From Ramlibacter monticola (lineage in GTDB: Bacteria; Pseudomonadota; Gammaproteobacteria; Burkholderiales; Burkholderiaceae_C), in NCBI RefSeq assembly GCF_016722785.1, contig NZ_JAEQNE010000001.1:1364001-1428000 (forward strand): a DNA stretch of 64,000 nt, in the 5' to 3' direction. Below are positions 44,206 to 62,620 of the stretch, piece after piece. The position numbers and the translations under genes were made by a program. How positions within the stretch are numbered: position 1 is the first letter of the stretch; each line of letters begins with the position of its first letter. The notes below the pieces were generated by a model, which saw only the letters and a program-made list of their open reading frames with translations, had not been told where the DNA came from and ran no database searches.

Positions 44206-44451
44206 CTATCCGTGCAGCTGGGTGTACTTTTCCAGCAGTTCTTCCTGCGTTTCCACGAAGTCCGGGTGCTGCACGATGCAATCGGCCGGGCAGGCCAGCT
44301 TGCACTGGGGTTCGTCCTCGGCGCCGACGCACTCCGTGCAGCGCAGCGGGTCGATCACGAAGATGATGTCCCCGGCGGTGATCGCCTCGTTGGGGCACAC
44401 GGGACGGCAGGCATCGCACGCCGTGCAGTCGTCGTTGATCAGCAAAGCCAT
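44206..44451 (-). CDS. fdx: 2[4Fe-4S] ferredoxin of benzoyl-CoA reductase
   Basis: An 81-residue cytosolic ferredoxin and the likely electron donor to benzoyl-CoA reductase. It has C9xxC12xxC15xxxC19P and a second motif C38xxC41-x8-C50xxxC54P, plus C58, followed by a helical C-terminal extension. The eight-residue insertion between Cys41 and Cys50, with the tail, defines the Chromatium-type (Alvin) ferredoxins, which have one very low-potential cluster. The homologue from Thauera aromatica feeds that reductase. It is the last gene of the operon, 24 bases after bcrD. Confidence 0.92.
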   Translation of the reverse strand: MALLINDDCTACDACRPVCPNEAITAGDIIFVIDPLRCTECVGAEDEPQCKLACPADCIVQHPDFVETQEELLEKYTQLHG

Positions 44452-44475
44452 TTCACTCTCCTCTCACTTCCGGAA

Positions 44476-45321
44476 TCACGCGGCCGCGCGCTGCTGCAGT
44501 TCCTGCAGCTTCGCGTGCCTGTAGGCGCCCCACAGCGCCGCGCCGATCGCGCCGGCATAGATCGCGTCGGGATGCGTCGCGACCTCCACCGGCACCTTCT
44601 CGTTGCTCATCTCCTCGCGGATCGCGGCGGTCAGGCCCTCGTCCATGCCGAGGCCGCCGGTGATCAGCGCGGTGCCCGTCTTGATGCCCGTCACCTTGAG
44701 CAGCTTCACGATCCGCGAAGCCATCGACAGGTGGATGCCCTTGAGGATGTCCGGCGTGGCGATGCCGCGGCTCACCATGTTGATCACGTCGGTCTCCGCC
44801 AGCACGGCGCAGATCGAGCTGACCTTCTCCGGGTCGGCGGAGGTCTTCGACAGGTTGCCGATCTCCTCCACCGCCACGCCCAGGTAGCGGGCGATGTTCT
44901 CGAGGAACTGGCCGGAGCCGGAAGCGCACTGCGACGTCATCTTGTACGCCAGCACCTTGCCGCGCTGGTCGACGTAGATCGCGCGCCCGTTGAGTGCGCC
45001 GATGTCCACCACGGCGGCGATGCCGGGCTGCAGGAACACCCCGCCGCGCGCATGCGTCGTCATCGAGTAGAAGTGCCCGGTGGAGAACTTGACGTTCTCG
45101 CCCTCTCCGGTGGTGGCGATGTACTCGATGTCGTTGGCGGCCAGGCCGGCGTCGTGCAGCACCGAGTCGAAGCCCTCCTGCGCCAGCGTCATGGGATCGC
45201 GCCGGCGGATCCGCTCGCAGCGCTTGGCGACCCAGTGGGCGCTGCCGTCCGCCTCGACGCGGAACAGCGTGCTCTTGACGGCGCCCGAGCCGATGTCGAT
45301 GCCGATGGTGTGGATGGTCAT
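44476..45321 (-). CDS. bcrD: Benzoyl-CoA reductase subunit D (ATPase)
   Basis: A 281-residue ASKHA-fold ATPase subunit of class I (ATP-dependent) benzoyl-CoA reductase. It opens with [16 protein letters not shown] (phosphate-1 loop) and carries [13 protein letters not shown], which provides a Cys for the [4Fe-4S] cluster held with BcrA, and [12 protein letters not shown]. The start at ATG 45321 overlaps the bcrA stop as ATGA. BcrA and BcrD hydrolyse ATP to drive low-potential electrons to the BcrBC active site. Its length is that of Thauera BcrD. Confidence 0.93.
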
Positions 45322-46664
45322 GCTGCCTCCCGGTGTTCCGCCGTCTTGCCCTCTTCCATCACCGCGCGCCAGGCGAAGGTGGCGGCGCCCAGTGCTCCCG
45401 TGTAGATCGAATCGGGATCGATGTTCAGCTGCAGGTTCCCGTAGTTCTCGAACACGAGTTCCTTCAGCGCCTTCACGGCCGCCTCGTTCTTGGCGACGCC
45501 ACCGGTGAAGGTGAACTGGTCGCGCACGCCCCCCGAGCGCGCCAGGATCGACATGGCGCGCAGGATGATGGCGCGGTGCAGGCCGGCCATGATGTCCTCG
45601 CGCTTGTCGCCCAGGCTCAGGCGGTCGCGCAGTTCCGCGCCCGCGAACACCGTGCAGGTGGAGTTGATGCGGATCGCCTTGGTCGACTTCATGGCCATGG
45701 GGCCCAGCTCGTGCAGGCCCATGTTCATTTCGTCGGCGATGTAGCCGAGGTAGCGCCCGCAGCCGGCGGCGCAGCGGTCGTTCATCTGGAAGCTTTCCAC
45801 GATGCCCTTCGGGTCCACCTGGATCGCCTTGGTGTCCTGGCCGCCGATGTCCAGCACGGTCGCCGTCTCGGGGTACATCACGTGCGCGCCGAGCCCGTGG
45901 CACAGGATCTCGGAGCGCACGTGCTCCTTCGAGAACGGCAGCCGCGCGCGCCCGTAGCCGGTGCCGACCACGTAGGTCTCTTCCATGGTGGTGTCCAGCA
46001 CGCCCTTGATCGGCGCTTCCACCCTGGTGCGCTTGTCCGCCGTGTCCGGCAGCGCCTTGAACGTGTTCTCCAGCGCCGCCAGCAGGTGGTGCCGCATCTG
46101 GTCGCCGTAGACGTGGTTCTCGACCTCGATGATCGAGCGGTCGAACAGGTTCAGCAGGTACTCGTAGCGGGTGCCGGCCTCCTTCGCCACCTGCTCGCCG
46201 ATGGCCAGGTACTGGCTGCCGGCGATGTCGCGGAAGAAGTCGCTCTTGCGCTTGGCGCCGGGCGCGAACAGCAGGTGCGCCTCGGCCTTCAGGCGGCGGA
46301 ACACCTCCTGCAGCGCCTCGGCCACCGCGCCCTTGGCGGCGCCGAAGTGACCGGTCTCCACGTTCTTGACGCAGGTCTCTTCCAGGTCACCGAGCTGCTC
46401 GAGGTACTGCTCGGCGCGGAAGTCGCGTTCGAGCTGCTCGATGAAGGTGTCCAGCCCCCCGTTGAGCGCGCCGGTGCGCGTCAGTGCCTGCCGGAAGAGG
46501 TAGAAGCGGCCATTGAGCATGGCCTCCTGCTTGGCGACCGCCGCCGCGGTGTCGTAGTTGGAGCGCGAGTTGGTGATGCCGCGCCCGATGATGTTCTGGT
46601 TCTCGTCGACCACCGTCGCCTTGGTGGTCGTCGAGCCCAGGTCGATGCCGATGAAACAGCGCAT
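45318..46664 (-). CDS. bcrA: Benzoyl-CoA reductase subunit A (ATPase)
   Basis: A 448-residue ASKHA ATPase paralogous to BcrD. It begins [19 protein letters not shown] (ATP phosphate-1 motif), and includes [15 protein letters not shown] (phosphate-2), [17 protein letters not shown] and [14 protein letters not shown] with the cluster Cys residues, and [10 protein letters not shown] (adenosine motif). It is about 165 residues longer than BcrD owing to an insertion, as known for BcrA. It is 13 bp downstream of bcrB and overlaps bcrD. It works in the alpha-beta-gamma-delta complex that reduces benzoyl-CoA to a cyclic dienoyl-CoA at the cost of ATP. Confidence 0.94.
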
Positions 46665-46677
46665 GGGTCGTCTCCTT

Positions 46678-48033
46678 TTATTGCACCGAGTGCAGCGGGA
46701 TCACCGGCCGGACGCCTTCGCCGATGCCCGTGGTGCGCTTCTGCTTGACCATCTGGAAGTAGCTCTCCAGCCGGTTCTTGACGTTGGCCGCGGAGAAGTA
46801 GCGCGGGTCGACCAGGTCGGTCTCGATGAAGGCCGCCGGCTTGCCGGTGCGCTTCTCGACCTCGCGCATCATCAGCAGCTGGCCGGCGGAGAAGCTGTTG
46901 CAGCTCTTGATCGAGTTGATCAGCAGGCCGTCCGCCTGGTACTCCTCGATGTAGTTGCAGATCATGTCGATCCGCGAAGGCAGGTTCAGGTTGGTGTAGC
47001 AGCCCAGGCAGTACTCCGCCAGCGACTCCAGCGGATGATCGGGGTCGTGCCGGAAGCCGAAGTCGTAGAGGCCGCCCACCTTGGCATAGGTGGAGGACAC
47101 CACCACGGCGCCCTCGTCGTAGAACATCTTCCAGAAGTCGCGGAAGCTGGTCCAGTTGGGCGGGCCCTCGACGATCAGCCGGTACTGCTCGTTCTTCATG
47201 TCGCCTTCGGGCGTGACCGGACCGCGGCCTTCGCGGACGCGCTGCTCGATCTCCTCGCGCAGCACGCGGTAGTAGTTGGTCGCTTCCGGGGTGCCGCGGA
47301 AGGCGGTGAAGATCGGGCCGATGTAGTACACGGCGCCGAAGTAGCCGTCGATGGGCGAAGGCCGGTTCTTGGCCGACTGCAGCACCTTCACCAGGTCGTC
47401 TTCGGCCTTCACCGACTCCTTCATGTACTGGCGCAGGCGGTCGATGTCGAACTTGACGCCGGAGATCTTCTCCAGCCCCGGGATGATCGTTTCCTTCAGT
47501 TGCCGCACGACGTAGTCGCGCATGTTCGGGTCGATCCGGCCGGAGCCCTGGTAGGGCACGTGCAGCATCAGCGTGGGCACGTCGTACTTGTGGCGGATCA
47601 GCTCGAACCACTTCATGAAGGTGAAGCAGCCCGTGTACGACAGCAGCAGCACGTCGGGCACCGGCAGCGGGTCGCCGGTGGGGCCGATTTCGCCGCCCAT
47701 CATCATCCCCAGGTCCGCCTTCACGTAGGTGCAGACGTCCTCGGAGTGGCCATCGCGCTCGGCGTCCATGATGAACTTGCCGGACTTCTTGCGCATGCCG
47801 TTCTGCAGCGCGTTGGTCTCGGGCAGGCTTCGCGCGAGGTCGAAGCACATGAGGAGCTCGTTCAGGTTGCCGGGCACGAAGGTCGCGGCGACCTTGCGGC
47901 CCTGCTTGTGCGCCTGCGCCAGGTCCATGTAGTTCGCGTTGATGAGCTCCTTCTGGAGGTTCATCGCGTCGTCCTTGACGGCCGTCGGCTTGGCCTTCTT
48001 CGAGGCCGGCATCGGGATCACGGTGTCGTTCAT
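46678..48033 (-). CDS. bcrB: Benzoyl-CoA reductase subunit B
   Basis: A 451-residue catalytic-module subunit of the BcrB/HgdA-like dehydratase family. Cysteines that could ligate the double-cubane or active-site cluster occur in [12 protein letters not shown] and [12 protein letters not shown]. Together with BcrC it forms the dearomatising module that accepts electrons from BcrAD. Its start overlaps the end of bcrC by four bases (ATGA). Length and sequence blocks agree with the beta-proteobacterial (Thauera) type rather than the BadE type from Rhodopseudomonas, as far as I can judge. Confidence 0.93.
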
Positions 48034-49211
48034 GCTGCGTCGCTCCAGAGCTTGATCGAATCGGCGAAGGTGCCAGCCTGTTCACGGATGGGGGCCATCT
48101 GCCCGGTGTTCTCTGCGTACTTGAATGCGGTGTACGGGATGTTGTTCTTCGCCAGCACGTCCTGCAGCATCGGCCGCTCCAGCAGGGCCGGGTCGCAGAA
48201 CGAAGGCGCCGCGAAGACCACGCCCTCGGCGCCGCGGGTCTTCACCTGCTTGAGCAGGAACACGCCCTTCTCCGCGCGGGTGGCGTCGTACTTCGCCGCC
48301 ATCGAGGCGGACCGGTGCAGGAAGGCCTTGGACAGTTCGTCCAGCGGGTCGGCGTCGGCCGGGACTTCGTCCAGCAGCCAGCGCGAGACCAGCATGTAGT
48401 CGTCGTCCACCACGTAGCAGCCGGCCATCTCCAGCGACTTGATCAGCGCCAGCGGCGGCTGCTCGCAGAAGGAGCCGGTGACGACGACGCGCGCGTTGTC
48501 GCGCTTCGGCCGCGGGATCTTGTCGGTCTCGCGGATGTAGTCGCGCATCAGCTGCGTGTGCTCCTCGGGCGGCAGCACCATGCCGGCGCGCCCGAGCAGG
48601 TAGACCTCGGAGGTGGGCGCCTGCTGCGGGTTCTGCGCGCGGTAGGCATAGAGCTCGCGCACCGCCGCGCGGTTGTCGTTGTAGACGCGGATCGAGGCAT
48701 TGAGCTCCTCGTCGGTGATCGGCTTGCCGCGCAGCTTCGCCAGGTCCTCGCGCAGCCCCTGCATCTCGTGGATGTAGAAGTGGCCGCCGACGTTGTCCTG
48801 GTAGTTCTGGGGCACGTCGAAGTAGCGCACGTACTTCTCGGGGAACAGGACCTGCCACATGCCGGAGAGGTTGCGGATCACGTCGCAGATCGACGGAAAC
48901 AGCATGCCGTCGATGCAGTCGAGGCGGCCGGTGAGCCCCAGCTCGATGGTGGAGCGCGGGATGCGGCAGATGTAGCTCTGGTAGTAGGCGTCGCCCTGGA
49001 TCACTTCCAGGCTGTCGCCGCCACCGAGGATGCCTACCGGCAGGAAGCCCGCGGCGTGGATCAGTTCGCGCGGCACGTACCAGGGCATGTAGCCGATCGC
49101 CTTGCGCGCCGGGTCGGCCGCCTTCCATTGCTTGACGGCGTTGAAATCGAGGTCGTCGAAGAGCGCCTGGCAGCGCTCGACGATCGCCTGTACGGGAGTA
49201 ATTGCAGTCAT
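48030..49211 (-). CDS. bcrC: Benzoyl-CoA reductase subunit C
   Basis: A 393-residue catalytic subunit of the HgdB/BcrC family. Conserved Cys residues occur in YICRIPRSTIELGL, LDCIDGMLFPSICD and VVTGSFCEQPPL. BcrBC binds benzoyl-CoA and takes single low-potential electrons from BcrAD. The start at ATG 49211 is 13 bases after the dch stop. The protein matches Thauera BcrC in length. It is the first Bcr subunit in the transcript, which runs had-oah-dch-bcrCBAD-fdx. Confidence 0.93.
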   Translation of the reverse strand: MTAITPVQAIVERCQALFDDLDFNAVKQWKAADPARKAIGYMPWYVPRELIHAAGFLPVGILGGGDSLEVIQGDAYYQSYICRIPRSTIELGLTGRLDCIDGMLFPSICDVIRNLSGMWQVLFPEKYVRYFDVPQNYQDNVGGHFYIHEMQGLREDLAKLRGKPITDEELNASIRVYNDNRAAVRELYAYRAQNPQQAPTSEVYLLGRAGMVLPPEEHTQLMRDYIRETDKIPRPKRDNARVVVTGSFCEQPPLALIKSLEMAGCYVVDDDYMLVSRWLLDEVPADADPLDELSKAFLHRSASMAAKYDATRAEKGVFLLKQVKTRGAEGVVFAAPSFCDPALLERPMLQDVLAKNNIPYTAFKYAENTGQMAPIREQAGTFADSIKLWSDAA

Positions 49212-49224
49212 TGCGAGCGCTCCT

Positions 49225-49998
49225 TCATTGATGGGTCCAGGCGGGCTGGCGCTTTTCCAGGAAAGCCGCGAGGCCCTCGTTGGCGTCGTGCGTGCGCATC
49301 AGCCAGTCGAGGTACAGGCGTTCGAGTTCGGCCAGGCGCTCGCGCACCTGCTTCTGCATCACGCCACGGGCGGCGACGGTGGCGCAGGCGAGCGCCGCGG
49401 CGCTCTTGCCGACCAGGTGCTGGTCGAACCAGGCCTTGGCGGCGACGGAGGGGTCCTCCGCCACTTCCTGCACGAGCCCGATGCGCAGCGCGTCTTCCGC
49501 GCCGATCGAACGGCCGGTGAGCAGCAGGTCCTCGGCGTCGGGCTGGTTGACTCGGTAGGGCAGCAGCGCGGAGGCAGCCGGGGCGAACACGCCCAGCTTG
49601 ACCTCGGGCTGGCCGAACTGCGCGGAGGGCGCGGCGAAGATGCGGCCGCAGGCAAGCGCCAGTTCGAGGCCGCCCCCCAGGCACTGTCCATGCACCGCCA
49701 CCATCACGGGCACGGGGAACTCCAGCATCTCCAGCAGCAGCGCATGCAGCGAGGTCAGCATCGCCGCGCACCGGTCGGGAAGGTGCTCCTCCACGCTGGC
49801 GCCGAAGCTGAAGTGCGGGCCTTCGGCGTCGACCAGCACGCCGCGCAGCATCACGTGGCGCCGGTACTGCCCCAGCGCCGCGTGCAGCGCCGCGATCATG
49901 GCGGCATCGACCAGGTTGGCCTTGGGCTTGTTCAGGCGCAGCCGCAGCAGCGCGCCGTCGCGTTCCAGCCAGACCTTCAGGGGAGCGTCGTTCTCCAT
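49225..49998 (-). CDS. dch: Cyclohexa-1,5-diene-1-carbonyl-CoA hydratase
   Basis: A 257-residue crotonase-superfamily hydratase that adds water to the dienoyl-CoA product of benzoyl-CoA reductase. Crotonase features are visible: LRLNKPKANLVDAAMI, FSFGASVEEH and the VHGQCLGGGLELALACG oxyanion-hole segment. Position between oah and bcrC and length fit Thauera Dch. It is a cytosolic enzyme. The short gap to oah (1 base) indicates tight co-translation. Confidence 0.92.
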   Translation of the reverse strand: MENDAPLKVWLERDGALLRLRLNKPKANLVDAAMIAALHAALGQYRRHVMLRGVLVDAEGPHFSFGASVEEHLPDRCAAMLTSLHALLLEMLEFPVPVMVAVHGQCLGGGLELALACGRIFAAPSAQFGQPEVKLGVFAPAASALLPYRVNQPDAEDLLLTGRSIGAEDALRIGLVQEVAEDPSVAAKAWFDQHLVGKSAAALACATVAARGVMQKQVRERLAELERLYLDWLMRTHDANEGLAAFLEKRQPAWTHQ

Positions 49999-49999
49999 C

Positions 50000-51118
50000 T
50001 CAGTCCTTCTTCGCCTTCGGCTGGATCTCGTCGTGCAGCGAGCCGATCCAGCTCTGGCCGGCGGCGAGCTTCTGGCGCAGCAGGACGAAGTCGACCTCGC
50101 GGTCCTCCTTCGTGCCCTCGTTGAACGCGGTGAAGCCGGAACGCGCCTCCGTCATCATGTTCAGGGCCAGCCAGTCGCGCGCGTCCTCCTTGTTCGCGTT
50201 CCAGGCGGCCAGCTTGGGCTTGCGCAGCTCCTCGATCGTCTTGAGCGTGCACTCGGGGAAGGTCATGAGGACCTTGGCGCACAGCTCCTCGACCTTCTGA
50301 TCGAGCAGCGAGAGGTCCACTTCGCCGCTCGCGAGCACCGCCTTGCCCTGCTTGGCCGCGTCACCGGTCTTGAACTCGCCGTAGGCGTTGCGGCCGTAGT
50401 CGTCGACCATGCGCTGGGTTTCCACCAGCGGGTTGGCCACGAACTTGCCGTCCACCTTCAGGGCCGGCACGACGTCGGTGATCATCCCCATCTGGTAGGC
50501 CTTGTGCGCCGAGAAAGGCTCGCACAGCACGCAGGCCGCCATGGCGCGCTCGGCGCCCACGATCACCGGCAGGAAGTCGGTGGCGCCGCCGATGGGCGCG
50601 GAGCCGTGCTTCGGGCCGGCCTGGCCGAATTTCGCGAGGTCCTGCGCCACGGTGAAGTCGCAGGCCATGCCGATCTCCTGGCCGCCGCCGATGCGCATGC
50701 CGTTCACGCGGCAGATCACCGGCTTGTCCGCCGCCAGGATCGTGCTGACCATGTCGTTGAACAGGCGCATGTACTGGCGGTATTCCTGCGGCTGGCCGGC
50801 GTAGTACTCGGCGTACTCCTTGGTGTTGCCTCCGGTGCAGAAGGCCTTGTCGCCCACGCCCGTGAAGACGATGCAGTTGACGTCGCGCGCATTGGAGGCC
50901 GCTTTGAACGCCAGGATCACGGCCTTGACCATGTCCGTCGTGTAGGAGTTGTACTGCGTCGGGTTGTCCAGCGTGATCCACGCGTTGAACAGGCCGGGCG
51001 CGACGGAGCCGTCCGGCCTGCGCGCCGGCCGCTTCTCGTAGCGCACGCCGGGCGTCTTCGGCTGCGGCGCCAGGTCGTGGTTCTTGAACTCCAGCACGGG
51101 AGCGATGGGGGCGTTCAT
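50000..51118 (-). CDS. oah: 6-oxocyclohex-1-ene-1-carbonyl-CoA hydrolase
   Basis: A 372-residue ring-opening crotonase-family hydrolase that adds water and cleaves the C-C bond, producing 3-hydroxypimeloyl-CoA. Diagnostic parts are NPTQYNSYTTDMVKAV, KAFCTGGNTKEYAEYY and NGMRIGGGQEIGMACDFT. The length is about 115 residues over Dch, as in Thauera Oah. It is the third enzyme after ring reduction. It sits 24 bases after had and one base from dch. Confidence 0.94.
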   Translation of the reverse strand: MNAPIAPVLEFKNHDLAPQPKTPGVRYEKRPARRPDGSVAPGLFNAWITLDNPTQYNSYTTDMVKAVILAFKAASNARDVNCIVFTGVGDKAFCTGGNTKEYAEYYAGQPQEYRQYMRLFNDMVSTILAADKPVICRVNGMRIGGGQEIGMACDFTVAQDLAKFGQAGPKHGSAPIGGATDFLPVIVGAERAMAACVLCEPFSAHKAYQMGMITDVVPALKVDGKFVANPLVETQRMVDDYGRNAYGEFKTGDAAKQGKAVLASGEVDLSLLDQKVEELCAKVLMTFPECTLKTIEELRKPKLAAWNANKEDARDWLALNMMTEARSGFTAFNEGTKEDREVDFVLLRQKLAAGQSWIGSLHDEIQPKAKKD

Positions 51119-51142
51119 TTCGGTCTGTCTCCTCTCTTGGGA

Positions 51143-52210
51143 TCAGCGGGGCTGCAGCACCACGCGGGCGCGGATCTCGTGGCGATGCACCGCCGCGAAA
51201 ATGGGATTGATGTCGGACAGGGGATGCGCCTCGACGAAGGGCGCGACCTGCACCTTGCCGTCCAGCACGAGCTCCAGCGCGGCCGGGTATTGCTCGGGCG
51301 GGCAGCCCCAGTTGCCGATCGCGCGCGCATCGAAGGCCATCAGGTTGGACAGGCGCACTTCGACCTTGTCCATGGTGAAGCCCACCACGCTCAGCGTCGC
51401 GCCGTGCACCAGCAGGTTCCACGCGCTCTGCTGGCCGGCGGACGTGCCCGAGCACTCGAAGATGAACCACTCGGTGGGGCGCAGGCCGTGCTCCTTCGCG
51501 AAGGCCTGCACCGCCTGCTTGACCTGCTTGGCATCCAGGCCGCGGCTGTTGAGGGTCTTCGCCGCGCCGTAGCGGGCGATGGCCTCCAGCTTGCGATCAT
51601 CGACGTCGATCGCGAGCACCTTGGCACCGAAGGCATTCGCCACCTGCACGCAGTAGCCGCCGACGCCGCCCGCGCCGATCACCACGGCCAGGCTGCCGGG
51701 CGTGACACCCGCGCGCTGCACCGCCTGGTAAGGCGTGGTGAGGGCATCGGCCACCACGGACACCTGCCACAGTTCCAGTCCCGCCTTCGCCAGCCGCTGC
51801 TCGTCGACGGGGCACAGCCCGCGCGAAGGCACCACGATGTGCGAGGCGAAGCCGCCCTGGATGTCGTTGCCGGGCATCTTCTGCGCGCGGCAGATGGTGG
51901 TGAGGCCGCGCTTGCACAGGTCGCACTCGCCGCAGGGCAGCACGGCCGGCACGATCACTGCCTTGCCCTTCCACGCTTCGGCGCCGGCGCCGGTCGCGAC
52001 GACGTGGCCGCTGATCTCGTGGCCGAGCGCGAGCGGCAGGGGTTGGTTGGTGCGTACGCCGTCGTAGTAGTAGCCGAGGTCGGTGTGGCACACGCCGCAG
52101 CCCGCGATTTCCACCACCACTTCGCCATCGCCTGGCGTCGCGAGGAAGTCCCGCTTCACCATCGGTTCCTGGGGCGCCGTCATCAGCCAGCGGTATGCAT
52201 CGATGCTCAT
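51143..52210 (-). CDS. had: 6-hydroxycyclohex-1-ene-1-carbonyl-CoA dehydrogenase
   Basis: A 355-residue zinc-type alcohol dehydrogenase (MDR superfamily) that oxidises the hydroxy-enoyl-CoA to the 6-oxo compound with NAD. It has the catalytic-zinc region [12 protein letters not shown] and GHEISGHV, structural-zinc cysteines [15 protein letters not shown], and Rossmann motif [11 protein letters not shown]. The start is ATG 52210 (MSIDAYRW) with TTTGGAGGAGA 4-10 bases upstream; the longer open frame upstream overlaps the control region. It heads the leftward bcr operon, opposite korAB. Confidence 0.93.
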
Positions 52211-52238: not shown

Positions 52239-52307
52239 CAGGCAAACGGTAAATAGGTACCCGAATGCCGATTTAGCGCATTCTGGGTGCCGTTTCGAAG
52301 CAAAACC

Positions 52308-52321
52308 TTGATCTGGTTCAA
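52308..52321. promoter_or_regulatory. FNR/AcpR-like box in the bcr-kor intergenic region
   Basis: TTGAT CTGG TTCAA matches nine of ten positions of TTGAT-N4-ATCAA. It is 98 bp from the had start and 59 bp from the korA start, so it could activate both promoters under low oxygen. In Azoarcus sp. CIB, the FNR-type regulator AcpR controls the bzd anaerobic benzoate operon, which supports the assignment by analogy. Confidence 0.65.
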
Positions 52322-52379: not shown

Positions 52380-54167
52380 GTGGATGCGTCACTGATCAGC
52401 GAGTCCCGGCCGCGCACGGCGGCTCCGCCCTCCCCCACCACCGCGCTCGACAGCGTGTCCATCGCCATCGCCGGCAGCGGCGGCAGCGGCGTGATGAGCG
52501 CCGGCAACTGGCTGCTCGAAGCCGCGGCGCGAAGCGGCCTCTACGGCCTCATGGTCAAGACCATGGGCCCGCAGATCCGCGGTGGCGAAGCGGCCGCGCT
52601 GGTGCGGCTCGCGACCTCCCAGCTCGAGTCGCTCGACGATGCCTTCGACGTGCTGCTCGCGATCGACTGGCAGAACGTGCACCGCTTCGCCGACGAGATC
52701 CCGCTGCGGGCCAGCGGCCTGCTGGTCTGCGATTCCGAAGGCGGCGAGATTCCCGAGGTCTTCGCCCGCAGCGGCGCGCGGGTGCTGTCGCTGCCGCTCA
52801 AGAAGATGGCCAAGGCCATCCCGGGCAGCTGGATCAACATGCTGGCGCTCGGCATCACGGGGGCGATGTCGGGGCTCCAGGTGGAGGCGCTCGAAGCGGC
52901 CGTGCGCAAGGGCTGGACCCGCAACGAGGCCGCGCTCGACGCCAACCTGAGCGCGGTGCGCGAAGGCGCGGCAGCGGCCCGCGACTACGCGCCGCAGGCA
53001 CGCCCCCTGGCCGGGCAACACGGCAAGCGCTGGCTGGTGAGCGGCAACGAAGGCGCGGGCTACGGCGCGATCCGCGGCGGGATCCGCTTCGTCGCGGCCT
53101 ACCCCATCACGCCGGCCACCGAAGTGCTGGAGTGGATGGCGCCGGCGCTGGTGCAGGCGGGCGGATCGCTGTTGCAGGCCGAGGACGAACTGGCCTCGAT
53201 CAACATGATCATCGGCTCCTCGTTCGGCGGCGTGCCCTCGTTCACCGCGACGGCAGGCCCGGGCCTGTCGCTGATGACCGAAGGCATCGGGCTGGCGGTC
53301 GCGGCCGAAGTGCCGATCGTGGTCATGGACGTGATGCGCGGCGGCCCGTCCACCGGCATTCCGGCCAAGAGCGAGCAGAGCGATCTTTCCTTCGCGGTGG
53401 GCGGCCTGCACGGCGACGCGCCGCGGCTGGTGCTCGCGCCGAGCTCGATCTCCGACTGCATCGAGACGACGCAGTGGGCGGTGGAACTGGCCGAGGCGCT
53501 GCAGTCGCCCGCGCTGGTGCTGTCCGACCAGTTCATGGGCCAGTCGCGCTCGATCGTCGACATGCCGAAGCTGCCCGCTCCGAACGCGAAGCGCCTCGTG
53601 GCCGAAGCCGACTCCCCGAACTACAAGCGCTATGGCGACACGCCCAGCGGGATCTCGCCGATGGCGATCCCGGGCACGCCCGGCAACACCTACACCGCCG
53701 ACGGCCTGGAGCACAGCGAAACGGGCGTGCCGAGCAGCCAGGCCGCCGACCACCGCCGCCAGCTGGACAAGCGCCTGCGCAAGCTGATGCAGCACGAGTA
53801 CGGCAGCCGCTGGGCCGACATCGAAGGCAACGGGCCACTGGCCGTGATCGCTTTCGGGTCCGCGGCCGGCCCGGTGCGGGAAGCCGCGCGGCGCGCCGCC
53901 GCCCACGGCGTCGAGGTCCGCGTGATCGTGCTGCGGCTGATCGCGCCCCTGCAGCCCGAAGCCATGGCGCAGGCGCTCGCCGGCGTCGAACGCGTGATCG
54001 TCGTCGAGCAGAACCACGAAGGCCAGCTGCTGCGCTACCTCAAGGGCGTGGCGCGCCTGCCCGGCGATCCCGCCGGCTTCCACCGCCCCGGCCCGCTGCC
54101 CTTGCGCCCCGCCGACATCTGTGCCGCCCTGCTCGAATGGGCTGCCGACCGAAAGGAGACGAAATGA
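52380..54167 (+). CDS. korA: 2-oxoglutarate:ferredoxin oxidoreductase, fused gamma-alpha subunit
   Basis: A 595-residue subunit with the gamma domain first ([16 protein letters not shown] near residue 22, [10 protein letters not shown]) and the alpha (pyrimidine-binding) domain after about residue 205 ([32 protein letters not shown]). With KorB it oxidises 2-oxoglutarate to succinyl-CoA and CO2 and reduces ferredoxin. In Thauera aromatica this enzyme regenerates the ferredoxin used by benzoyl-CoA reductase. The start is GTG 52380 after GAGGAGAC. It overlaps korB (ATGA) and is divergent from the bcr operon. Confidence 0.92.
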
Positions 54168-55012
54168 GCGCCATGTGCTCCAGTGACGCGGTCGCCGAGC
54201 CGTACACGCCTGTCGACTACAAGTCCGCGACCAAGCCGATCTGGTGCCCGGGCTGCGGCGACTACACCGTGCTCAATGCGGTGACCAAGGCCCTCGCGCT
54301 GGTGCAGCGGCCGCCGCACGAAGTGGCGGTGGTCTCGGGCATCGGCTGCTCCTCGCGCATCCCGGCCTACACCTCCTGCTACGGCTTCCATGGCGTGCAT
54401 GGCCGCTCGCTGGCCGCCGCCACCGGCCTGAAGGTCGCGCGGCCCGACCTGACGGTGCTGGTGGCCAGCGGCGACGGCGACGGCTATTCGATCGGCGGCA
54501 ACCACTTCCTGCACGCCTGCCGCCGCAACGTGGACCTGACCTACATCGTGATGGACAACCACGTCTACGGCATGACCAAGGGCCAGGCCTCGCCGACCAC
54601 GGAGCCGGACTGGGACAACAAGCTGTCTCCGGGCGGCACCGGCGTGCGCTCGTTCCACCCGCTCGTGATCGCGCTGGCCGCGGGAGCCAACTTCGTCGCG
54701 CGCGCCTTCGCCGGAGACCAGAACGGCACGGCGGAGATCATCGCGGCAGGCATCCGCCACCCGGGCTTCTCCTTCATCGAGATCCTGAGCCCCTGCGTGA
54801 CCTTCCGCCCCGAGCAGAAGGAATGGAAGAACCAGGTCCATGCTGCGCCGGTCGGCCCGACCGACGACGCGGCCCGAGCCGCCAAGCGGATCATGACCGA
54901 CGACGGCTTCAACATCGGCGTGCTCTATGCGGGCCACCGAGCGCCCTACAGCGGCGGTCCCGGCGAACCGAGCCGCACGCTGGAACAGATGGAAGAGGAG
55001 TTCGCCCTCTGA
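54164..55012 (+). CDS. korB: 2-oxoglutarate:ferredoxin oxidoreductase beta subunit
   Basis: A 282-residue thiamine-diphosphate- and [4Fe-4S]-binding subunit. IWCPGCGDY supplies cluster cysteines, with a further Cys in GIGCSSRIP. SGDGDGYSIGGNHFLHAC is the TPP/Mg motif. It pairs with KorA, from which it is translated with a four-base overlap. Together they supply low-potential electrons. A ferritin-like gene follows after 14 bases. Confidence 0.92.
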   Translation: MSAMCSSDAVAEPYTPVDYKSATKPIWCPGCGDYTVLNAVTKALALVQRPPHEVAVVSGIGCSSRIPAYTSCYGFHGVHGRSLAAATGLKVARPDLTVLVASGDGDGYSIGGNHFLHACRRNVDLTYIVMDNHVYGMTKGQASPTTEPDWDNKLSPGGTGVRSFHPLVIALAAGANFVARAFAGDQNGTAEIIAAGIRHPGFSFIEILSPCVTFRPEQKEWKNQVHAAPVGPTDDAARAAKRIMTDDGFNIGVLYAGHRAPYSGGPGEPSRTLEQMEEEFAL

Positions 55013-55026
55013 ACGGAGTCGCAATC

Positions 55027-55536
55027 ATGAGGATCCACAACGTGCCCACTCCGCGCGACATGACGGAACTGATGGCCCAGGCCTATGCGCTGGAGCGCGA
55101 AGCGGTCGAGCGCTATGGCGAGCTGGCCGATGTGCTGGCCACCCACAACAACCAGGAAGTGGCTGCGCTGTTCCGGCGGCTGGCCAGCCAGGAGGCCCTG
55201 CACGCAGCCGAGATCCTGCGCACCATGGGCTGGACGCGCGCACCGGAGCCGCCCGGCCTGCCCGGTGCGCCCTCGGCGCCGGCCTACGACGAAACGCACT
55301 ACCTGATGCACCCGTGGCACGCGCTGCGCCTGGCGCTCGACGCCGAGCAGCGCGCGCACGACTTCTTCGCCGAACTGGTGCAGCGCTGCGAGGGCGACGA
55401 CATGCGCCGCGCCGCCGAGCGGCTGCAGGCCGACGAGCGGGAGCACATCGTGCTGCTGCAGGACTGGCTGAAGCGCGTGCCCGAGCCGCCCGCCGGCTGG
55501 GACGACGATCCCGATCCACCCCGTTATCCGCACTGA
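55027..55536 (+). CDS. Rubrerythrin/ferritin-like protein
   Basis: A 169-residue cytosolic four-helix-bundle protein with di-iron ligands: E28, E56xxH59 in SQEALH, E107 with H111 in EQRAH, and E137xxH140 in DEREH. It lacks the rubredoxin-like Cys module, so it is a rubrerythrin-like or ferritin-like protein rather than full-length rubrerythrin. It may protect the oxygen-sensitive reductase enzymes by scavenging peroxide or storing iron. It lies between korB and ridA, with short gaps. Confidence 0.8.
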   Translation: MRIHNVPTPRDMTELMAQAYALEREAVERYGELADVLATHNNQEVAALFRRLASQEALHAAEILRTMGWTRAPEPPGLPGAPSAPAYDETHYLMHPWHALRLALDAEQRAHDFFAELVQRCEGDDMRRAAERLQADEREHIVLLQDWLKRVPEPPAGWDDDPDPPRYPH

Positions 55537-55539
55537 CGC

Positions 55540-55941
55540 ATGAGAACCCTCCTTCCCGAAGGCTGGGCGCCGGCCCAGGGCTATGCCAACGGCATCGAAG
55601 TGCCCGCCGCGGGCCGCATCGTCTTCCTCGCCGGCCAGGTGGGGTGGGATGCGCAGCAGCGCTTCCACTCCGAAGAGATCGCCCCGCAGTTCGCGCAGGC
55701 GCTGGACAACATCCTGGCCGTCCTGCGCGAAGCCGGCGGCGGTCCGCAGCACATCTGCCGCATCACGGCCTTCTGCTGCGACAAGCCGAAGTACATGGCC
55801 GCGCGCAAGGAGCTCGGCGCGATCTGGCGCGAGCGCATGGGGCGCCACTACCCCGCGATGAGCATGATCTTCGTGGCCGACCTGCTGGATCGCCCGGGGG
55901 TCATCGAGCTGGAGGCGACCGCGGTCCTGCCCGCGGCCTGA
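55540..55941 (+). CDS. RidA/YjgF/YER057c-family protein
   Basis: A 133-residue RidA-superfamily protein with VFLAGQVGWD, a central AVLREAGGGPQHICRITAF helix and a C-terminal VADLLDRPGVIELEATAV segment. Canonical RidA hydrolyses reactive enamine/imine intermediates; this Arg-containing deaminase residue is not obvious here, so another function is possible. It starts 3 bases after the ferritin-like gene and is followed by a strong hairpin and padE. Its placement beside 2-oxoacid enzymes hints at clearing a reactive side product, but that is inference. Confidence 0.82.
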   Translation: MRTLLPEGWAPAQGYANGIEVPAAGRIVFLAGQVGWDAQQRFHSEEIAPQFAQALDNILAVLREAGGGPQHICRITAFCCDKPKYMAARKELGAIWRERMGRHYPAMSMIFVADLLDRPGVIELEATAVLPAA

Positions 55942-56010: not shown

Positions 56011-56571
56011 ATGAACGACGCGGCCATGCTGCAGATCGTGATCCAGGGCCGCGGCGGCCAGGGCGCGCAGACGGCGGGCAACCTGCTCGCCCGCGCCTTC
56101 TTCGCCGAGGGCCGCCAGGTGCAGGCCTTCGCCAGTTACGGCGGAGCCCGCCGCGGCACCCCCGTGAGTTCCTTCATCCGCGTGGCGGAGCGGCCGATCC
56201 GGCTGCGCTGCGACATCGAGAAGGCGGACGCCATCCTCTGCTTCGATGCCAGCCTGCTGCAGCCGCCGCTGCTCGCGCGCGCGCGGCCCGACACCGTGAT
56301 CGTGGTGAACTCGGTCCACACCGCCGCCGAGTGGCGGGAGAACCTGCCCGGGTACCGGGTGCTGCCGGTCGATGCCATCGGGATCTCGCGTTCGCAGGGA
56401 CTCGGACGCATCGTGAACTCGGCCCTGCTCGGGGCATTGGCGCGGGCCCTGGCTTCGCCGCGCCTGGAGGTCCTGCGCGACCTGCTGCTGGAAGGCCGTC
56501 AGGGCGACGCCAACGCCGCGGCCTGCGCGCTGGGCTACGCGGCGGCCGGCGCCGAGGAGGTTTCATCGTGA
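56011..56571 (+). CDS. 2-oxoacid:acceptor oxidoreductase gamma subunit (PadE-like)
   Basis: A 186-residue gamma subunit of the pyruvate-ferredoxin-oxidoreductase family, beginning QIVIQGRGGQGAQTAGN and including ASYGGARRGTPVSS, the CoA/gamma-domain signatures. In Azoarcus evansii and relatives, separate gamma (PadE), delta, alpha, epsilon and beta genes encode phenylglyoxylate:NAD oxidoreductase. The four-gene set here has the same subunit types, so PadE is the closest guess. It overlaps the next gene by four bases (GTGA). Confidence 0.75.
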   Translation: MNDAAMLQIVIQGRGGQGAQTAGNLLARAFFAEGRQVQAFASYGGARRGTPVSSFIRVAERPIRLRCDIEKADAILCFDASLLQPPLLARARPDTVIVVNSVHTAAEWRENLPGYRVLPVDAIGISRSQGLGRIVNSALLGALARALASPRLEVLRDLLLEGRQGDANAAACALGYAAAGAEEVSS

Positions 56572-58205
56572 GCACCGTCCTGCCCCCCACCGCCTGGACC
56601 ACGGGCACAACCGAAGTCTTCAAGACGGGCACCTGGCGCGCGGCCATGCCGCAGTACCTGGCGCGCCCGTCGCCCTGCCACCAGGCCTGTCCGGTCAACG
56701 GCCTGATTGCCGACTGGATCGGCCATGCGCGCGCCGGCGACCTGCGCCGCGCCTGGGAGGTGCTGGCCGTCAACAATCCCTTCCCCGCCATCGCGGGGCG
56801 CATCTGCCACCACCCTTGCGAATCGGCCTGCAACCGGGCCGGTTACGACGAGGCGGTGTCCGTGTGCCGGCTGGAGCGGGCCGTCGGCGACGCCGCGCTG
56901 GAGGCGGGTTGGGCGTTCGAACCGCCGGCCGTGGCGCAGGAAGCGCACGTCGCCGTGATCGGCGGCGGGCCCTCCGGGCTGTCCGCCGCCTACCAGTTGC
57001 GCCGGCGCGGCTGGCGCGTCAGCCTCTACGAGGCGAAGCCGCAACTGGGCGGCCTCATGCGCTACGGCATCCCTGCCTACCGCCTGCCCCGCGCCGTGCT
57101 GGATGGCGAGATCGAGCGCATCGTGGCGCTGGGCGTCGACGTGCATTGCGGCTTCACGCTGCGCACCCCGGAGGACCTGCAGCGGATGCGCGAGCGGCAC
57201 GACCTGGTGTACCTCGCGCTGGGCGCGGCCCGGCCCAGGGCGCTGCCGCAGTTGCCCGCGCAGGCGCCCTGGCTGATGCAGGGCACGGACTATCTCGCCC
57301 GCTGCGCCGAGGGCGACGCGCCGCGGCTGGGGCAACGCATCGTCGTGATCGGCGGCGGCAGCAGCGCCATGGACGTCGCGCGCAGCGCGCGCCGCAACGG
57401 CTGCTCCGTCACCGTCGTGTCGCTGGAGGCGCGCAGCGCGATGCCGGCGCAACGGGAGGAAGTGCAGGAGGCGCTGGAGGAAGGCGTGCTGCTGTGCGAC
57501 AGCACCATGGTGCGCAGCGTCGAGGGCGATCCCCTGCAGCTGGAATGCGTGCGGGTCCGCTTCGAGCCGGGCGCGGCCGGGGCGCCGCCGCGCGTCGAGG
57601 CCAGCGGCGAGGGCGCGTTCACGCTGCAGGCCGATGCCGTGCTGACGGCGATCGGGCAGGATGCGGACCTGTCGCTGTTCCCGGCCGGCGCCACGGCCGG
57701 GGGGCTGCTGCGCGTCGACTCCCGGCAGGCCACCGACTTGCCGGGCGTCTGGGCCGGCGGCGACCTCGCCAGCATGGCACGCTTCCTCAGCGAAGCGGTC
57801 GGCATGGGCAAGCGGGCGGCGCTCGACATCGACCGCGCCCTGCGCGGGACGCAGCGGACGGAGGTCCCCCCCGCGCAGCCGGTGGGCCTGCAGGAAATCG
57901 CCACCTGGTACCACCCCCCACGCCGGCGGCCGGAGCACCAGCGCCTGGGCGTGCCGCAGCGAGTGGCGGGCGACGACGAGGTGCAGCTGGCCCTCTCGCC
58001 CGGGGAAGTGCAGGCGGAGGCGGCGCGCTGCTTCTCCTGCGGCACCTGCACCAGCTGCGACAACTGCTTCCAGTTCTGCCCCGACCTGGCCATCACGCAC
58101 GGCCAGGACGGCTACGCGGTGCTGGCCGACTACTGCAAGGGCTGCGGCATCTGCGTCCGTGAATGCCCCACGGGTTCGATGGTCCTGCAGGAGGAACTGC
58201 GATGA
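56568..58205 (+). CDS. Fused flavin/NAD(P) oxidoreductase-ferredoxin subunit (PadH-PadF-like)
   Basis: A 545-residue fusion. Residues about 35-90 form a GltD-type Fe-S domain (C37, C41, C80, C84, C88). Residues about 125-470 are an FAD/NAD(P) module with two Rossmann signatures, VIGGGPSGLSAAY and VIGGGSSAMDVARSA, and an FAD-terminal GGDLASMARF. The end is a 2[4Fe-4S] ferredoxin domain: C494, C497, C500, C504 and C523, C526, C529, C533, plus extra C488 and C491. In Azoarcus the delta and epsilon subunits of phenylglyoxylate dehydrogenase are separate, so this appears to be a fusion. A BzdV-like NADPH:ferredoxin role for benzoyl-CoA reductase is the other option. The start is GTG 56568 (overlaps padE). 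Confidence 0.72.
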   Translation: MSTVLPPTAWTTGTTEVFKTGTWRAAMPQYLARPSPCHQACPVNGLIADWIGHARAGDLRRAWEVLAVNNPFPAIAGRICHHPCESACNRAGYDEAVSVCRLERAVGDAALEAGWAFEPPAVAQEAHVAVIGGGPSGLSAAYQLRRRGWRVSLYEAKPQLGGLMRYGIPAYRLPRAVLDGEIERIVALGVDVHCGFTLRTPEDLQRMRERHDLVYLALGAARPRALPQLPAQAPWLMQGTDYLARCAEGDAPRLGQRIVVIGGGSSAMDVARSARRNGCSVTVVSLEARSAMPAQREEVQEALEEGVLLCDSTMVRSVEGDPLQLECVRVRFEPGAAGAPPRVEASGEGAFTLQADAVLTAIGQDADLSLFPAGATAGGLLRVDSRQATDLPGVWAGGDLASMARFLSEAVGMGKRAALDIDRALRGTQRTEVPPAQPVGLQEIATWYHPPRRRPEHQRLGVPQRVAGDDEVQLALSPGEVQAEAARCFSCGTCTSCDNCFQFCPDLAITHGQDGYAVLADYCKGCGICVRECPTGSMVLQEELR

Positions 58206-59353
58206 GCGACGGCCAGACCCTGCTCCTGAACGGCAACCACGCCGCCGCCTGGGCGGCGCGGCTCGCCCGGCCCGAAGTGATCCCGGTCTATCCGATCACG
58301 CCGCAGACGCCGATCCTGGAACTGATCACGGAATTCCAGGCGCGCGGCGAACTGCATGCCCAGGTGCTCACGCCCGAATCCGAGCACTCGGTGCTGGCGG
58401 CCTGCATCCCGGCCTCCCTGGCGGGGGCGCGTGTGTTCACCGCCACCGCCTCGCAGGGCCTGCTGCTGATGCACGAGGTGCTGCACTACGCCAGCGGCGC
58501 GCGCGCACCGATCGTGATGTGCAACGTCAACCGCACGGTGGCCTCGCCCTGGGCCTTCTGGCCCGACGAGACCGACAGCCTGGCCCAGCGCGACACCGGC
58601 TGGCTCCAGTTCTACAGCGAGAGCCCGCAGGAATCGCTGGACACCGTGCTGCAGGCCTTCCGCATCGCCGAGACCGTGCAGCTGCCCGCGATGGTGAGCC
58701 ACGACGCCTTCTACGTCTCGCATTCGCTGGAGCCGGTGCACGTGCCCTCGCAGGAGACGGCGGACCGCTACCTCGCGGCCTGCCGGCGGGTGCGCCACCT
58801 GAACACGGAAGCGCCCTCCGGGTGGGGCAACGTGGTGACCCCGGACATGTACAACCGCCACCGGCAGGCGGTGCAGGAGGCGATGGCGCGCGCGCTCGAA
58901 GTGGCGCAGGAAGCGGACCGGGTCTGGGGCGAACTCACCGGGCGCAGCTACGGCCTGGTGGAGCGCTACCGATGCGAGGACGCGCGCATCGTGGTCGTCG
59001 CGCTCGGCAGCATGTGCGGCACGGCGCGCGAGGCGATCGACCAGCTGCGCGCGGACGGACTGGCTGCGGGCCTGCTGAAGCTGCGCCTGTTCCGGCCGCT
59101 GCCGCAGCAGGCGCTGCGCGTCGCGCTGGCCGGCGTGCCGGACGTGCTGGTGCTCGATCGAAACCACTCGCCGGGGCTCGGGGGCATCCTGCACCAGGAA
59201 GTCCGTGCCGCCCTCTACGGGCTGCCGGATGCGCCGCGCGTGCACGGGGTGCTGGCGGGCGTGGGCGGTGTCGACGTGCAGCCGCGGCGCATCCGCGAGC
59301 TGGTGGCTGCGGCATTGCAGGGTGCGGCCGCGCCCGAATCGACCTGGGGGTGA
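58202..59353 (+). CDS. 2-oxoacid:acceptor oxidoreductase alpha subunit (PadG-like)
   Basis: A 383-residue alpha (pyrimidine-binding plus CoA) subunit: VYPITPQTPILELITEF, SEHSVLAACIPASLAGARVFTATASQG, and the C-terminal transketolase-like DVLVLDRNHSPGLGGILHQEV. It resembles the alpha subunit of pyruvate-type oxidoreductases and PadG. It overlaps the fused flavoprotein by four bases (ATGA) and is followed by beta after 2 bases, so the four subunits are made together. Phenylglyoxylate is the guessed substrate; pyruvate or indolepyruvate cannot be ruled out. Confidence 0.75.
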   Translation: MSDGQTLLLNGNHAAAWAARLARPEVIPVYPITPQTPILELITEFQARGELHAQVLTPESEHSVLAACIPASLAGARVFTATASQGLLLMHEVLHYASGARAPIVMCNVNRTVASPWAFWPDETDSLAQRDTGWLQFYSESPQESLDTVLQAFRIAETVQLPAMVSHDAFYVSHSLEPVHVPSQETADRYLAACRRVRHLNTEAPSGWGNVVTPDMYNRHRQAVQEAMARALEVAQEADRVWGELTGRSYGLVERYRCEDARIVVVALGSMCGTAREAIDQLRADGLAAGLLKLRLFRPLPQQALRVALAGVPDVLVLDRNHSPGLGGILHQEVRAALYGLPDAPRVHGVLAGVGGVDVQPRRIRELVAAALQGAAAPESTWG

Positions 59354-59355
59354 CC

Positions 59356-60246
59356 ATGGAACGCATTGAACGCCGCGACCCGATGCTGTGCTCCGGCCAT
59401 GCGGCCTGTCCCGGCTGCATGGAAGCCCTGTCGGCACGCCACGTGCTCGCCCGCATGGGCCCCGACACCATGGCGGTGATCCCGCCCTCCTGCATGGCGA
59501 TCATCGCCGGTCCGCAGCCTTACAGCTCGCTGCGCATCCCGGTGTACCAGCCGACGCTGGAAGCGAGCGCCGCCGCCGCATCCGGGCTGCGGCGGGCGCT
59601 CGATGCGCAGGGCCGCAGCGACACGCAGGTGGTGGTGCTGGCCGGCGATGGCGGCACGTACGACATCGGCCTGCAGTGCCTGTCATCAGCGGCGGAGCGC
59701 AACGAGGACATGCTCTACGTCTGCCTGGACAACGAGGGCTACATGAACACCGGCGCGCAGAAGTCCTCCTCGACGCCGCTGTTCGCCCGCACGAGTTCCA
59801 CGCCCGAGGGCAAGCCGACGCGCAAGAAGAACCTCACGGGCATCATGGCGGCGCACGGCGTGCCGTATGCGGCGACGGCCAGCGTGGGCTTCATGGACGA
59901 CATGCTGCGCAAGGTGGAGAAGGCCAAGGCGATCCGCGGCTTCCGCATCCTCACGCTGCTGGTGCCCTGCATCGACGGCTGGGGGCTGGACGACGACGGC
60001 GGCCTGCAGGCCGCGCGCTACGCGGTGGAGTGCGGCGCGTTCCCGCTGTACGAGGTGGAGGACGGGAGCCGGTACACCCTCAACTACTCGCTGCGCCCGC
60101 GCAAGGTCGGCGACTACCTGGCGCTGCAGAAACGCTACCGCGGCCTCGCCGAGGCCGAAGTGGCCGCGCTGCAGGCCGAGGTGGACCGGGGATGGGAATG
60201 GTTGATGCGCCTGATCCAGGCGGAGGAAGTGCAGGCGCTGCCCTGA
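59356..60246 (+). CDS. 2-oxoacid:acceptor oxidoreductase beta subunit (PadI-like)
   Basis: A 296-residue TPP/[4Fe-4S] subunit. C12, C18 and C21 (LCSGHAACPGC), with a later Cys in VPCIDGW, bind the cluster. GDGGTYDIGLQ and DNEGYMNTGAQ bind thiamine diphosphate and magnesium. It resembles the beta subunits of pyruvate- and phenylglyoxylate-type oxidoreductases (PadI). It is the last gene before the 137-bp palindromic element. Confidence 0.75.
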   Translation: MERIERRDPMLCSGHAACPGCMEALSARHVLARMGPDTMAVIPPSCMAIIAGPQPYSSLRIPVYQPTLEASAAAASGLRRALDAQGRSDTQVVVLAGDGGTYDIGLQCLSSAAERNEDMLYVCLDNEGYMNTGAQKSSSTPLFARTSSTPEGKPTRKKNLTGIMAAHGVPYAATASVGFMDDMLRKVEKAKAIRGFRILTLLVPCIDGWGLDDDGGLQAARYAVECGAFPLYEVEDGSRYTLNYSLRPRKVGDYLALQKRYRGLAEAEVAALQAEVDRGWEWLMRLIQAEEVQALP

Positions 60247-62598: not shown

Positions 62599-62620
62599 CG
62601 CCGGACCGCGGGACACGACC

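Follow-up and report, generated by a model that had tools for sequence, protein, structure and literature searches.

A Thauera-type benzoyl-CoA pathway operon in a Ramlibacter genome with denitrification genes: probably an old and mostly vertically kept trait

Background

Is a benzoyl-CoA pathway operon in a Ramlibacter chromosome a recent import, or does it reflect an anaerobic capacity that the genus has long kept? The question is raised by a stretch of 64,000 nucleotides from Ramlibacter monticola (assembly GCF_016722785.1, contig NZ_JAEQNE010000001.1, positions 1,364,001 to 1,428,000; hereafter the window, from whose first letter coordinates are counted), which carries the operon had-oah-dch-bcrCBAD-fdx on its minus strand, transcribed from 52210 to 44206 and divergently from korAB. 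Most accounts of anaerobic ring reduction among betaproteobacteria come from Rhodocyclaceae, and members of Ramlibacter are commonly described as aerobic. Our literature search, which left most subscription papers outside its reach, found no account of bcr genes in Ramlibacter. The genus is mentioned once in the accessible part of PMC10803450, among genera with an incomplete Box context. Judging from sequence comparisons, we conclude that this Ramlibacter, which bears denitrification genes, very probably encodes in the window all of a Thauera-type class I benzoyl-CoA pathway, as an old trait that has been mostly vertically kept, with many losses.

Gene content and layout of the operon

Gene identity was judged by curated NCBIfam equivalog cut-offs (in bits), which seven of the eight operon genes exceeded. 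These are had (51143..52210; TIGR03201, 572 against a cut-off of 339), oah (50000..51118; TIGR03200, 628 against 464), dch for cyclohexa-1,5-dienecarbonyl-CoA hydratase (49225..49998; TIGR03189, 372 against 293), the genes of the ring-reducing subunits, bcrC (48030..49211; TIGR02263, 637 against 421) and bcrB (46678..48033; TIGR02260, 788 against 487), and those of the activator subunits of benzoyl-CoA reductase (BCR), bcrA (45318..46664; TIGR02259, 717 against 578) and bcrD (44476..45321; TIGR02261, 410 against 313). The eighth, fdx (44206..44451), encodes a 2[4Fe-4S] ferredoxin with nine Cys, the presumed electron donor of BCR, and passed NF033683 (112.5 against 86), a YfhL-type di-4Fe-4S ferredoxin model that is not specific to bcr. 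All four reductase subunits are of the bcr type, and the bzd models scored far below their own cut-offs.

The first-pass annotation had described these genes as contiguous and Thauera-like in arrangement, and both descriptions held. Gaps measure 24 bp (had/oah), 1 bp (oah/dch), 13 bp (dch/bcrC), 13 bp (bcrB/bcrA), and 24 bp (bcrD/fdx), with 4-bp overlaps at bcrC/bcrB and bcrA/bcrD, a spacing which suggests that dch, oah, and had share one transcript with bcr; the order equals that of the Thauera aromatica operon as given in the accessible part of PMC6449761. In alignments limited to sequences of at least 80% length, Cys298 and Cys337 of BcrA were invariant in 23/23 sequences and Cys132 and Cys171 of BcrD in 22/22. 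The invariant Cys82, Cys109, and Cys339 of BcrC (28 sequences) and Cys136 and Cys378 of BcrB (26 sequences) align with Cys of MbdN and MbdO, respectively. BcrA and BcrD also contain DIG, CAAG/CASG, and GG motifs, which we take to be the ATPase motifs of the activator. By analogy, BcrCBAD would carry out ATP-dependent reduction of benzoyl-CoA, and the operon, as far as its sequence can tell, is an ordinary and well-formed example of its type, found in a host for which such operons are little described.

Host and denitrification genes

The Comamonadaceae-type host proposed at first reading was borne out, as the genome is a Ramlibacter and the best named BcrC match, at 92% identity, comes from Ramlibacter alkalitolerans. 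The same reading had raised an under-appreciated anaerobic capacity, and this is favoured by narG, nirK, and nosZ, each of which was found over its cut-off in the window genome. A norB-like gene near narG was named by reading; a nirS search matched none of its control genomes. Genus-wide searches covered 60 or 59 Ramlibacter genomes, in which narG was detected in 13/15 bcr carriers vs 11/44 other genomes (Fisher p 3.9e-5). The link was also seen when the count was restricted to genomes with completeness of at least 90% and contamination of at most 5% (10/12 vs 7/32, p 3.4e-4).

Distribution and phylogeny of the reductase

BcrC was found in 15 of 60 genus genomes (fragmented contigs may hide genes, and one genome with korAB, G033, was counted as bcr-negative) and, counting the window's own genome, in 14 of 399 genomes sampled from the order. 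Among 84,980 species genomes, 197 stretches encode a BcrC relative; the 80 listed, referred to below as named loci, are 77-92% identical, and identity within the genus is 81-92%. Neighbourhood counts used 76 of these 80, the four loci of at most 5 kb being left out. We queried 27 bcr genomes for RpoB and obtained it from 25, which also make up the BcrCBAD tree. In this tree, all 15 Ramlibacter form one clade with support of 100/100, and they likewise form one clade in the RpoB tree. The RpoB data do not reject the Bcr subclade of the window's genome (approximately unbiased test, p-AU 0.317), where the groups for the topology tests were chosen after the trees were seen.

A quick tree that added the 80 named loci grouped the Ramlibacter rows with metagenome-assembled genomes titled Burkholderiaceae or Burkholderiales, then with Sphaerotilaceae and Rhodoferax, and apart from the rows of family code f11 and a bin titled 'Aromatoleum'; two rows titled otherwise (L014 and L024) equal same-genus rows. 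The f11 BcrC rows are 73-77% identical, and this family is only presumed to be Rhodocyclaceae. Rhodoferax-titled loci are among the listed BcrC relatives; in Rhodoferax ferrireducens, an organism able to grow on benzoate with Fe(III), genes for an ATP-dependent benzoyl-CoA reductase were not found according to the accessible part of PMC2755013. The GC content at third codon positions of the eight operon genes (0.878-0.965) lies inside the 0.857-0.979 spanned by 31 other genes of the window. Plasmid searches returned only relatives at 24-33% identity, and the only tRNA gene in the window is about 11.7 kb from the operon.

Weighing the alternatives

Several observations weigh against the reading of a complete pathway with an old and largely vertical origin, and part of them would suit a recent acquisition, which the first-pass annotation had allowed, from Rhodocyclaceae of the Thauera or Azoarcus type. 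The operon is patchy in the genus (15/60), so the presence in all close relatives that the annotation had named as a sign of no transfer was not found either; its site moves between lineages; two outside families are not monophyletic in Bcr (p 0.005 and 0.023); and its GC content of 0.670 is slightly under the 0.692 of the first 44 kb. Furthermore, the Bcr data reject the RpoB position of one carrier, G057 (p 0.0002), RpoB alone served as the species-tree proxy, two Bcr rows were less than 40% filled, two of the 15 bcr carriers (G002 and G035) have no narG match, and KorB falls marginally under its TIGR02177 cut-off. Nevertheless, a recent import from Rhodocyclaceae was rejected, and appears highly improbable to us, in a comparison without any sequence known to come from Thauera, on the single Ramlibacter clade, its nearest outside rows among other Burkholderiales, the RpoB test, the native third-position GC content, and the spread of BcrC identity inside the genus.

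A milder objection is that vertical inheritance has been overstated and that, following a single early gain, the cluster was transferred from one Ramlibacter species to another. Flanking synteny, a comparison also proposed in the first-pass annotation, held within a few groups only: among ten genomes, left flanks are common within the window's genome and its sister genome (G000/G004), within G057/G058, and within G012/G048/G056 (for G002, two genes only could be compared before the contig end), so that several differing sites exist. These flanking contexts and the different placement of G057 in the two trees favour such movement, while the RpoB result for the Bcr subclade and the long gene order past bcr, which is largely kept too, speak against it, and we hold it to be rather unlikely as the main history. 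An island between two otherwise adjacent genes was also considered and rejected: besides G000 and G004, ten genomes have both the acyltransferase gene of the left flank and the RluD-like gene of the right, and in every one of them the two are separated by more than 600 kb or sit on separate contigs, so that no empty insertion site can be demonstrated. An early gain or ancestral presence in the genus, followed by many losses and several relocations, would be the simplest account; exchange of the cluster inside the genus is possible, and some exchange of Bcr within the order has apparently happened. The pathway might also be an unused relic in a host that degrades aromatics only with oxygen, for which the presence of aerobic paa- and box-like genes (named by reading gene calls) could be cited. 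With eight intact genes, conserved cysteines, two promoter motifs kept above background (see below), and the association with narG, we find this quite improbable and retain an old, probably functional pathway as our reading.

Promoter sites between had and korA

Two candidate control sites lie between the divergent operons: a 20-bp palindrome at 52248..52268 (consensus GTATTnCGGTACCGnAATAC, core GGTA-N6-TACC), a candidate operator that scored 23.1 with a weight matrix built without the window and the sister genome (next best 4.4), and an FNR-like box, TTGATCTGGTTCAA, at 52308..52321, with one mismatch to TTGAT-N4-ATCAA. The latter is the upstream element that an FNR-controlled promoter would be expected to carry. 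According to the parts of PMC6678401 and PMC4424350 accessible to us, the FNR-type AcpR is required for bzd and mbd expression in Azoarcus sp. CIB, and in Thauera sp. MZ1T, as the accessible part of PMC6449761 reports, no BzdR/BoxR site was found ahead of the bcr operon, which leaves bcr control open there. The palindrome beside the FNR-like box in the bcr/kor promoter is new here.

The palindrome was first noticed by eye, in the window and in the promoters of a second reductase described below, and then counted; it was not predicted beforehand. From 110 sequences, 74 korA/bcr regions were obtained, and removal of eight same-sequence copies left 66, which are related sequences and not independent draws. 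Controls were 70 other divergent regions from the same loci (median 332 bp, compared to 430 bp for the bcr/kor regions). The exact core was present in 39/66 bcr/kor regions vs 2/70 controls, and the core with at most one mismatch in 60/66 vs 12/70 (p 2e-19); for the FNR box with at most one mismatch, the counts were 35/66 vs 7/70 (p 4e-8). In 18 hand-picked representatives, mean pairwise identity was 69% in the palindrome, a value raised somewhat by anchoring the sites on the motif, compared to about 28% on both sides. A less selected line of evidence comes from about 235 kb of the window genome (the window and nine stretches), which contain two exact copies of the core, one at the bcr/kor promoter and one before the second reductase, and no further good palindrome sites. 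Elsewhere, across 2.14 Mb of fetched loci, all sites within four mismatches are intergenic and adjoin bcrC, oah, or had genes, the second reductase, or GNAT or hemerythrin genes, a placement near aromatic genes that is partly built in because nearly all loci were fetched around bcr or second-reductase genes. Less favourably for an operator in the window itself, its 20-mer has 5/18 mismatches and its FNR box has one. Scans for sigma-70 promoters and terminators gave 0 and 2 sites, respectively, not above shuffles. As a side observation, six loci hold bcr clusters with no korAB called and still have the palindrome before bcrC or oah (L054, titled Rhodoferax, and L023, L026, L028, L029, and L031, in the same tree clade).

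The regulator acting at the palindrome is perhaps a linked pair on the minus strand, an Rrf2-family protein (60390..60803; TIGR00738 over cut-off) and a GNAT acetyltransferase whose gene overlaps it (60800..61255; PF00583 over cut-off). The precedent is the BadM (Rrf2) and BadL (GNAT) pair of Rhodopseudomonas palustris. The linked Rrf2 protein has no Cys and hence is not expected to bind an Fe-S cluster by Cys ligation. Palindrome sites within four mismatches were found between the transporter gene livK and the GNAT gene in L017, L033, and L047, and upstream of the GNAT gene in L136, as autoregulation would give. On the other side, the Rrf2-GNAT/livK promoter of the window genome has only a degenerate site (score 3.6), and the pair is adjacent in only 10 of 109 fetched loci, many of which are short; gene calls in fetched loci came from a simple GC-frame caller, so results of 'not adjacent' may reflect a missed gene. 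On balance, we put the chance that another regulator, for example one encoded elsewhere, binds the palindrome at about even. Either way, the palindrome offers a concrete bait for finding the bcr regulator.

A second, unlinked class I reductase

The second copy of the palindrome core precedes an unlinked locus on contig C14 of the window genome (L006:6938-11629), where genes for four reductase subunits and an FdxA-type ferredoxin are followed by a hemerythrin gene. The C and B subunits scored under the cut-offs of the bcr and bzd models (bcrC 284/421, bcrB 222/487, bzdN 106/454, bzdO 104/449), and the A and D subunits did likewise. Closest are MbdNO, with 359 and 363 bits, as the best of five Protein Data Bank sequences listed per subunit in a comparison that did not include MbrCBAD; the C subunit is 45.8% identical to MbdN (171/373 residues). 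This reductase is present in seven genomes (G000, G004, G012, G029, G376, G414, and G415), all of which also have canonical bcr. Upstream of its start by 82-92 bp is an FNR-like box, with at most one mismatch in 6/7 genomes (three in G415), and GGTA-N6-TACC starts 42-53 bp after this box, exact in 6/7 and with at most one mismatch in 7/7.

Neighbours of the second reductase differ in 7/7 genomes except for the ferredoxin (called in 5/7), the hemerythrin (6/7), and one gene common to G000 and G004. Besides FdxA and hemerythrin, no neighbour is common to at least three of the loci, where most neighbours are unannotated and may include a transporter gene. At a threshold of 1e-8, six of the loci (16.6-20 kb) contained no match to the window's dch, oah, had, paaK-like, or other AMP-ligase genes, and the five non-reductase neighbours annotated in the window genome include nothing ligase- or ring-opening-like. 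Of the features expected of a 3-/4-methylbenzoyl-CoA reductase, closeness in sequence to MbdNO was seen, and no dedicated ligase or ring-opening genes were found beside the enzyme. We take the enzyme to be a real ring reductase, expressed anaerobically and probably under the same control as bcr, and this orphan is a clear candidate for enzyme assay.

The surrounding cluster

The operon belongs to a larger cluster, which the first-pass annotation did not mention, as it did not mention the second reductase; this cluster includes korAB, rubrerythrin-like, RidA, oxoacid oxidoreductase, transporter, padBCD-like, paaK-like, and hcrCAB genes. On the plus strand, korA (2-oxoacid:ferredoxin oxidoreductase alpha, 52455..54167; TIGR03710 over cut-off, with upstream starts such as 52380 possible) adjoins korB (beta, 54164..55012; TIGR02177, 260.8 against 261.9), and genes for a rubrerythrin-like di-iron protein (55027..55536; PF02915 over cut-off) and a RidA-like protein (55540..55941; PF01042 over, TIGR00004 below cut-off) follow. 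Further along the same strand are a 2-oxoacid oxidoreductase gamma subunit (porG/padE-like, 56011..56571; TIGR02175 over cut-off), a GltD-like flavoprotein with a ferredoxin domain (56646..58205; NF009410, 499.8 against 516), and the alpha (porA/padG-like, 58202..59353; PorA_Arch 412 against 550, PadG 293 against 700) and beta (porB/padI-like, 59419..60246; best model NF008818, 305.5 against 405) subunits, for which we propose phenylglyoxylate as the substrate of the oxidoreductase at 58202..59353 from the neighbouring genes. Beyond the Rrf2-GNAT pair, a branched-chain-type ABC transporter starts at 61435..64000 (livK, livH, and livM, the last cut by the window end; matches below cut-off, further liv genes named from gene order). 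Several Ramlibacter loci (L204:825-1607, L132, and L131) have a gene of crotonase type between ridA and porG, encoding 260 aa in the first two, and the window is without it.

Past the window (L088, G000:C1:1424001-1444000), a FlK-type thioesterase gene is followed by a molybdopterin oxidoreductase and its Fe-S and membrane subunits, which resemble padBCD in gene order and were matched by no specific model, by a paaK-like ligase (590.9 bits, below the cut-off of 646.3), and by hcrC, hcrA, and hcrB for 4-hydroxybenzoyl-CoA reductase, all over cut-off. Near the hcr genes are DUF2249, an nnrS-like gene read by eye (no model matched), and a hemerythrin gene, and aerobic paa-like genes come next (L089, named by reading gene calls). 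The sole benzoate-CoA ligase over cut-off is on contig C12 (TIGR02262, 793.7 bits against 375), adjoining boxB- and boxR-like genes named by reading. Next to hcrB we also observed 209 aa of an AMP-binding CoA ligase (L088:15905-16534), possibly a truncated enzyme, with a 73% match in the sister genome (L126). There, hcrA and hcrB are only 59% and 50% identical to those of the window genome while neighbouring genes are 85-94% identical, and the stretch end and the gene caller may contribute to these low values. Downstream of fdx, L057:14997-17477 and similar runs in L058, L065, L082, and L046 encode a recurring set of a ~355-aa protein (the L057 copy without Pfam match), a ~103-aa protein (in L057 with PF01883, of Fe-S assembly type), and a tandem-GNAT protein, which adjoins hemerythrin, nnrS-like, and hcr genes.

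The rubrerythrin-like gene is a constant companion of korAB: among named loci with korB and room beyond, it comes directly after korB in 47 of 48, with RidA next in 43. It is present in 13/15 bcr carriers vs 1/44 other genus genomes, the lone non-carrier being G033, on a korAB contig that ends inside korA, and the carriers without it being G034 and G035, each in more than 500 contigs. Across an alignment of 48 sequences, residues E23, E56, H59, E107, E137, and H140 do not vary, the pattern that a ferritin-like di-iron site would be expected to show. The predicted structure is a four-helix bundle (predicted local distance difference test score 86.8), and the best fold match, which concerns the fold and not the gene context, is 2oh3, an uncharacterised COG1633 protein of Magnetospirillum magnetotacticum (E 6e-7, 37% identity). 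The protein may serve as an oxygen or peroxide guard.

Proposed pathway and comparison with known systems

In the pathway that we propose, KorAB would oxidise a 2-oxoacid and pass electrons to Fdx, as the accessible part of PMC9973337 describes for KorAB donation to BCR in T. aromatica; BcrA and BcrD would spend ATP to push electrons from Fdx to BcrB and BcrC, which would convert benzoyl-CoA to cyclohexadienoyl-CoA; and Dch, Had, and Oah would hydrate, oxidise, and open the ring. Benzoyl-CoA may come from benzoate (through the ligase), 4-hydroxybenzoate (through HcrCAB), and phenylacetate (through the PaaK-like and PadBCD-like enzymes and the oxoacid oxidoreductase). An FNR-type activator would turn on the divergent operons in the absence of oxygen, the 20-bp palindrome would be the target of a second regulator, and the rubrerythrin-like protein would protect oxygen-sensitive enzymes. 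More tentatively, and with somewhat less than even confidence, we suggest that the bcr/kor divergon and the unlinked reductase form one anaerobic regulon in Burkholderiales, governed by an FNR-type activator and a regulator at GTATTnCGGTACCGnAATAC, perhaps a BadM-like Rrf2 with GNAT; in this regulon, the unlinked enzyme would be a new ring-reductase subfamily, broadening the range of substrates and supplying the common Dch, Had, and Oah steps, with the rubrerythrin-like protein guarding ring reductase from oxygen. Since the bcr module occurs in Ramlibacter and, as judged from the sequence scan, in other Burkholderiales, the groups credited with nitrate-linked degradation of aromatics may be too few. 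What deserves following up is the palindrome common to both loci, and with it the orphan reductase.

Among known systems, the nearest solved relative of the second reductase is the 3-methylbenzoyl-CoA enzyme of Azoarcus sp. CIB (mbd, structure 9g87), whose cluster, according to the accessible part of PMC4424350, has its own ligase, transporter, and ring-opening genes, unlike the surroundings of the second reductase, where nothing ligase- or ring-opening-like was found. The bzdNOPQ enzyme of the same strain is likewise a class I ATP-dependent reductase, under the control of the FNR-type AcpR, but the window subunits fall below all bzd cut-offs, and the window palindrome differs from the TGCA-type BzdR operators described in the accessible part of PMC6678401, although no search for TGCA-type operators was made here. 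The closest likeness is to Thauera aromatica, with the same gene set and order (PMC6449761, compared by description and not by sequence) and the same Kor/ferredoxin electron supply (PMC9973337), as far as the accessible parts of both sources describe them; what sets the Ramlibacter locus apart is its Comamonadaceae host, the por, liv, pad-like, and hcr genes around it, and the palindrome with the FNR-like box in its promoter.

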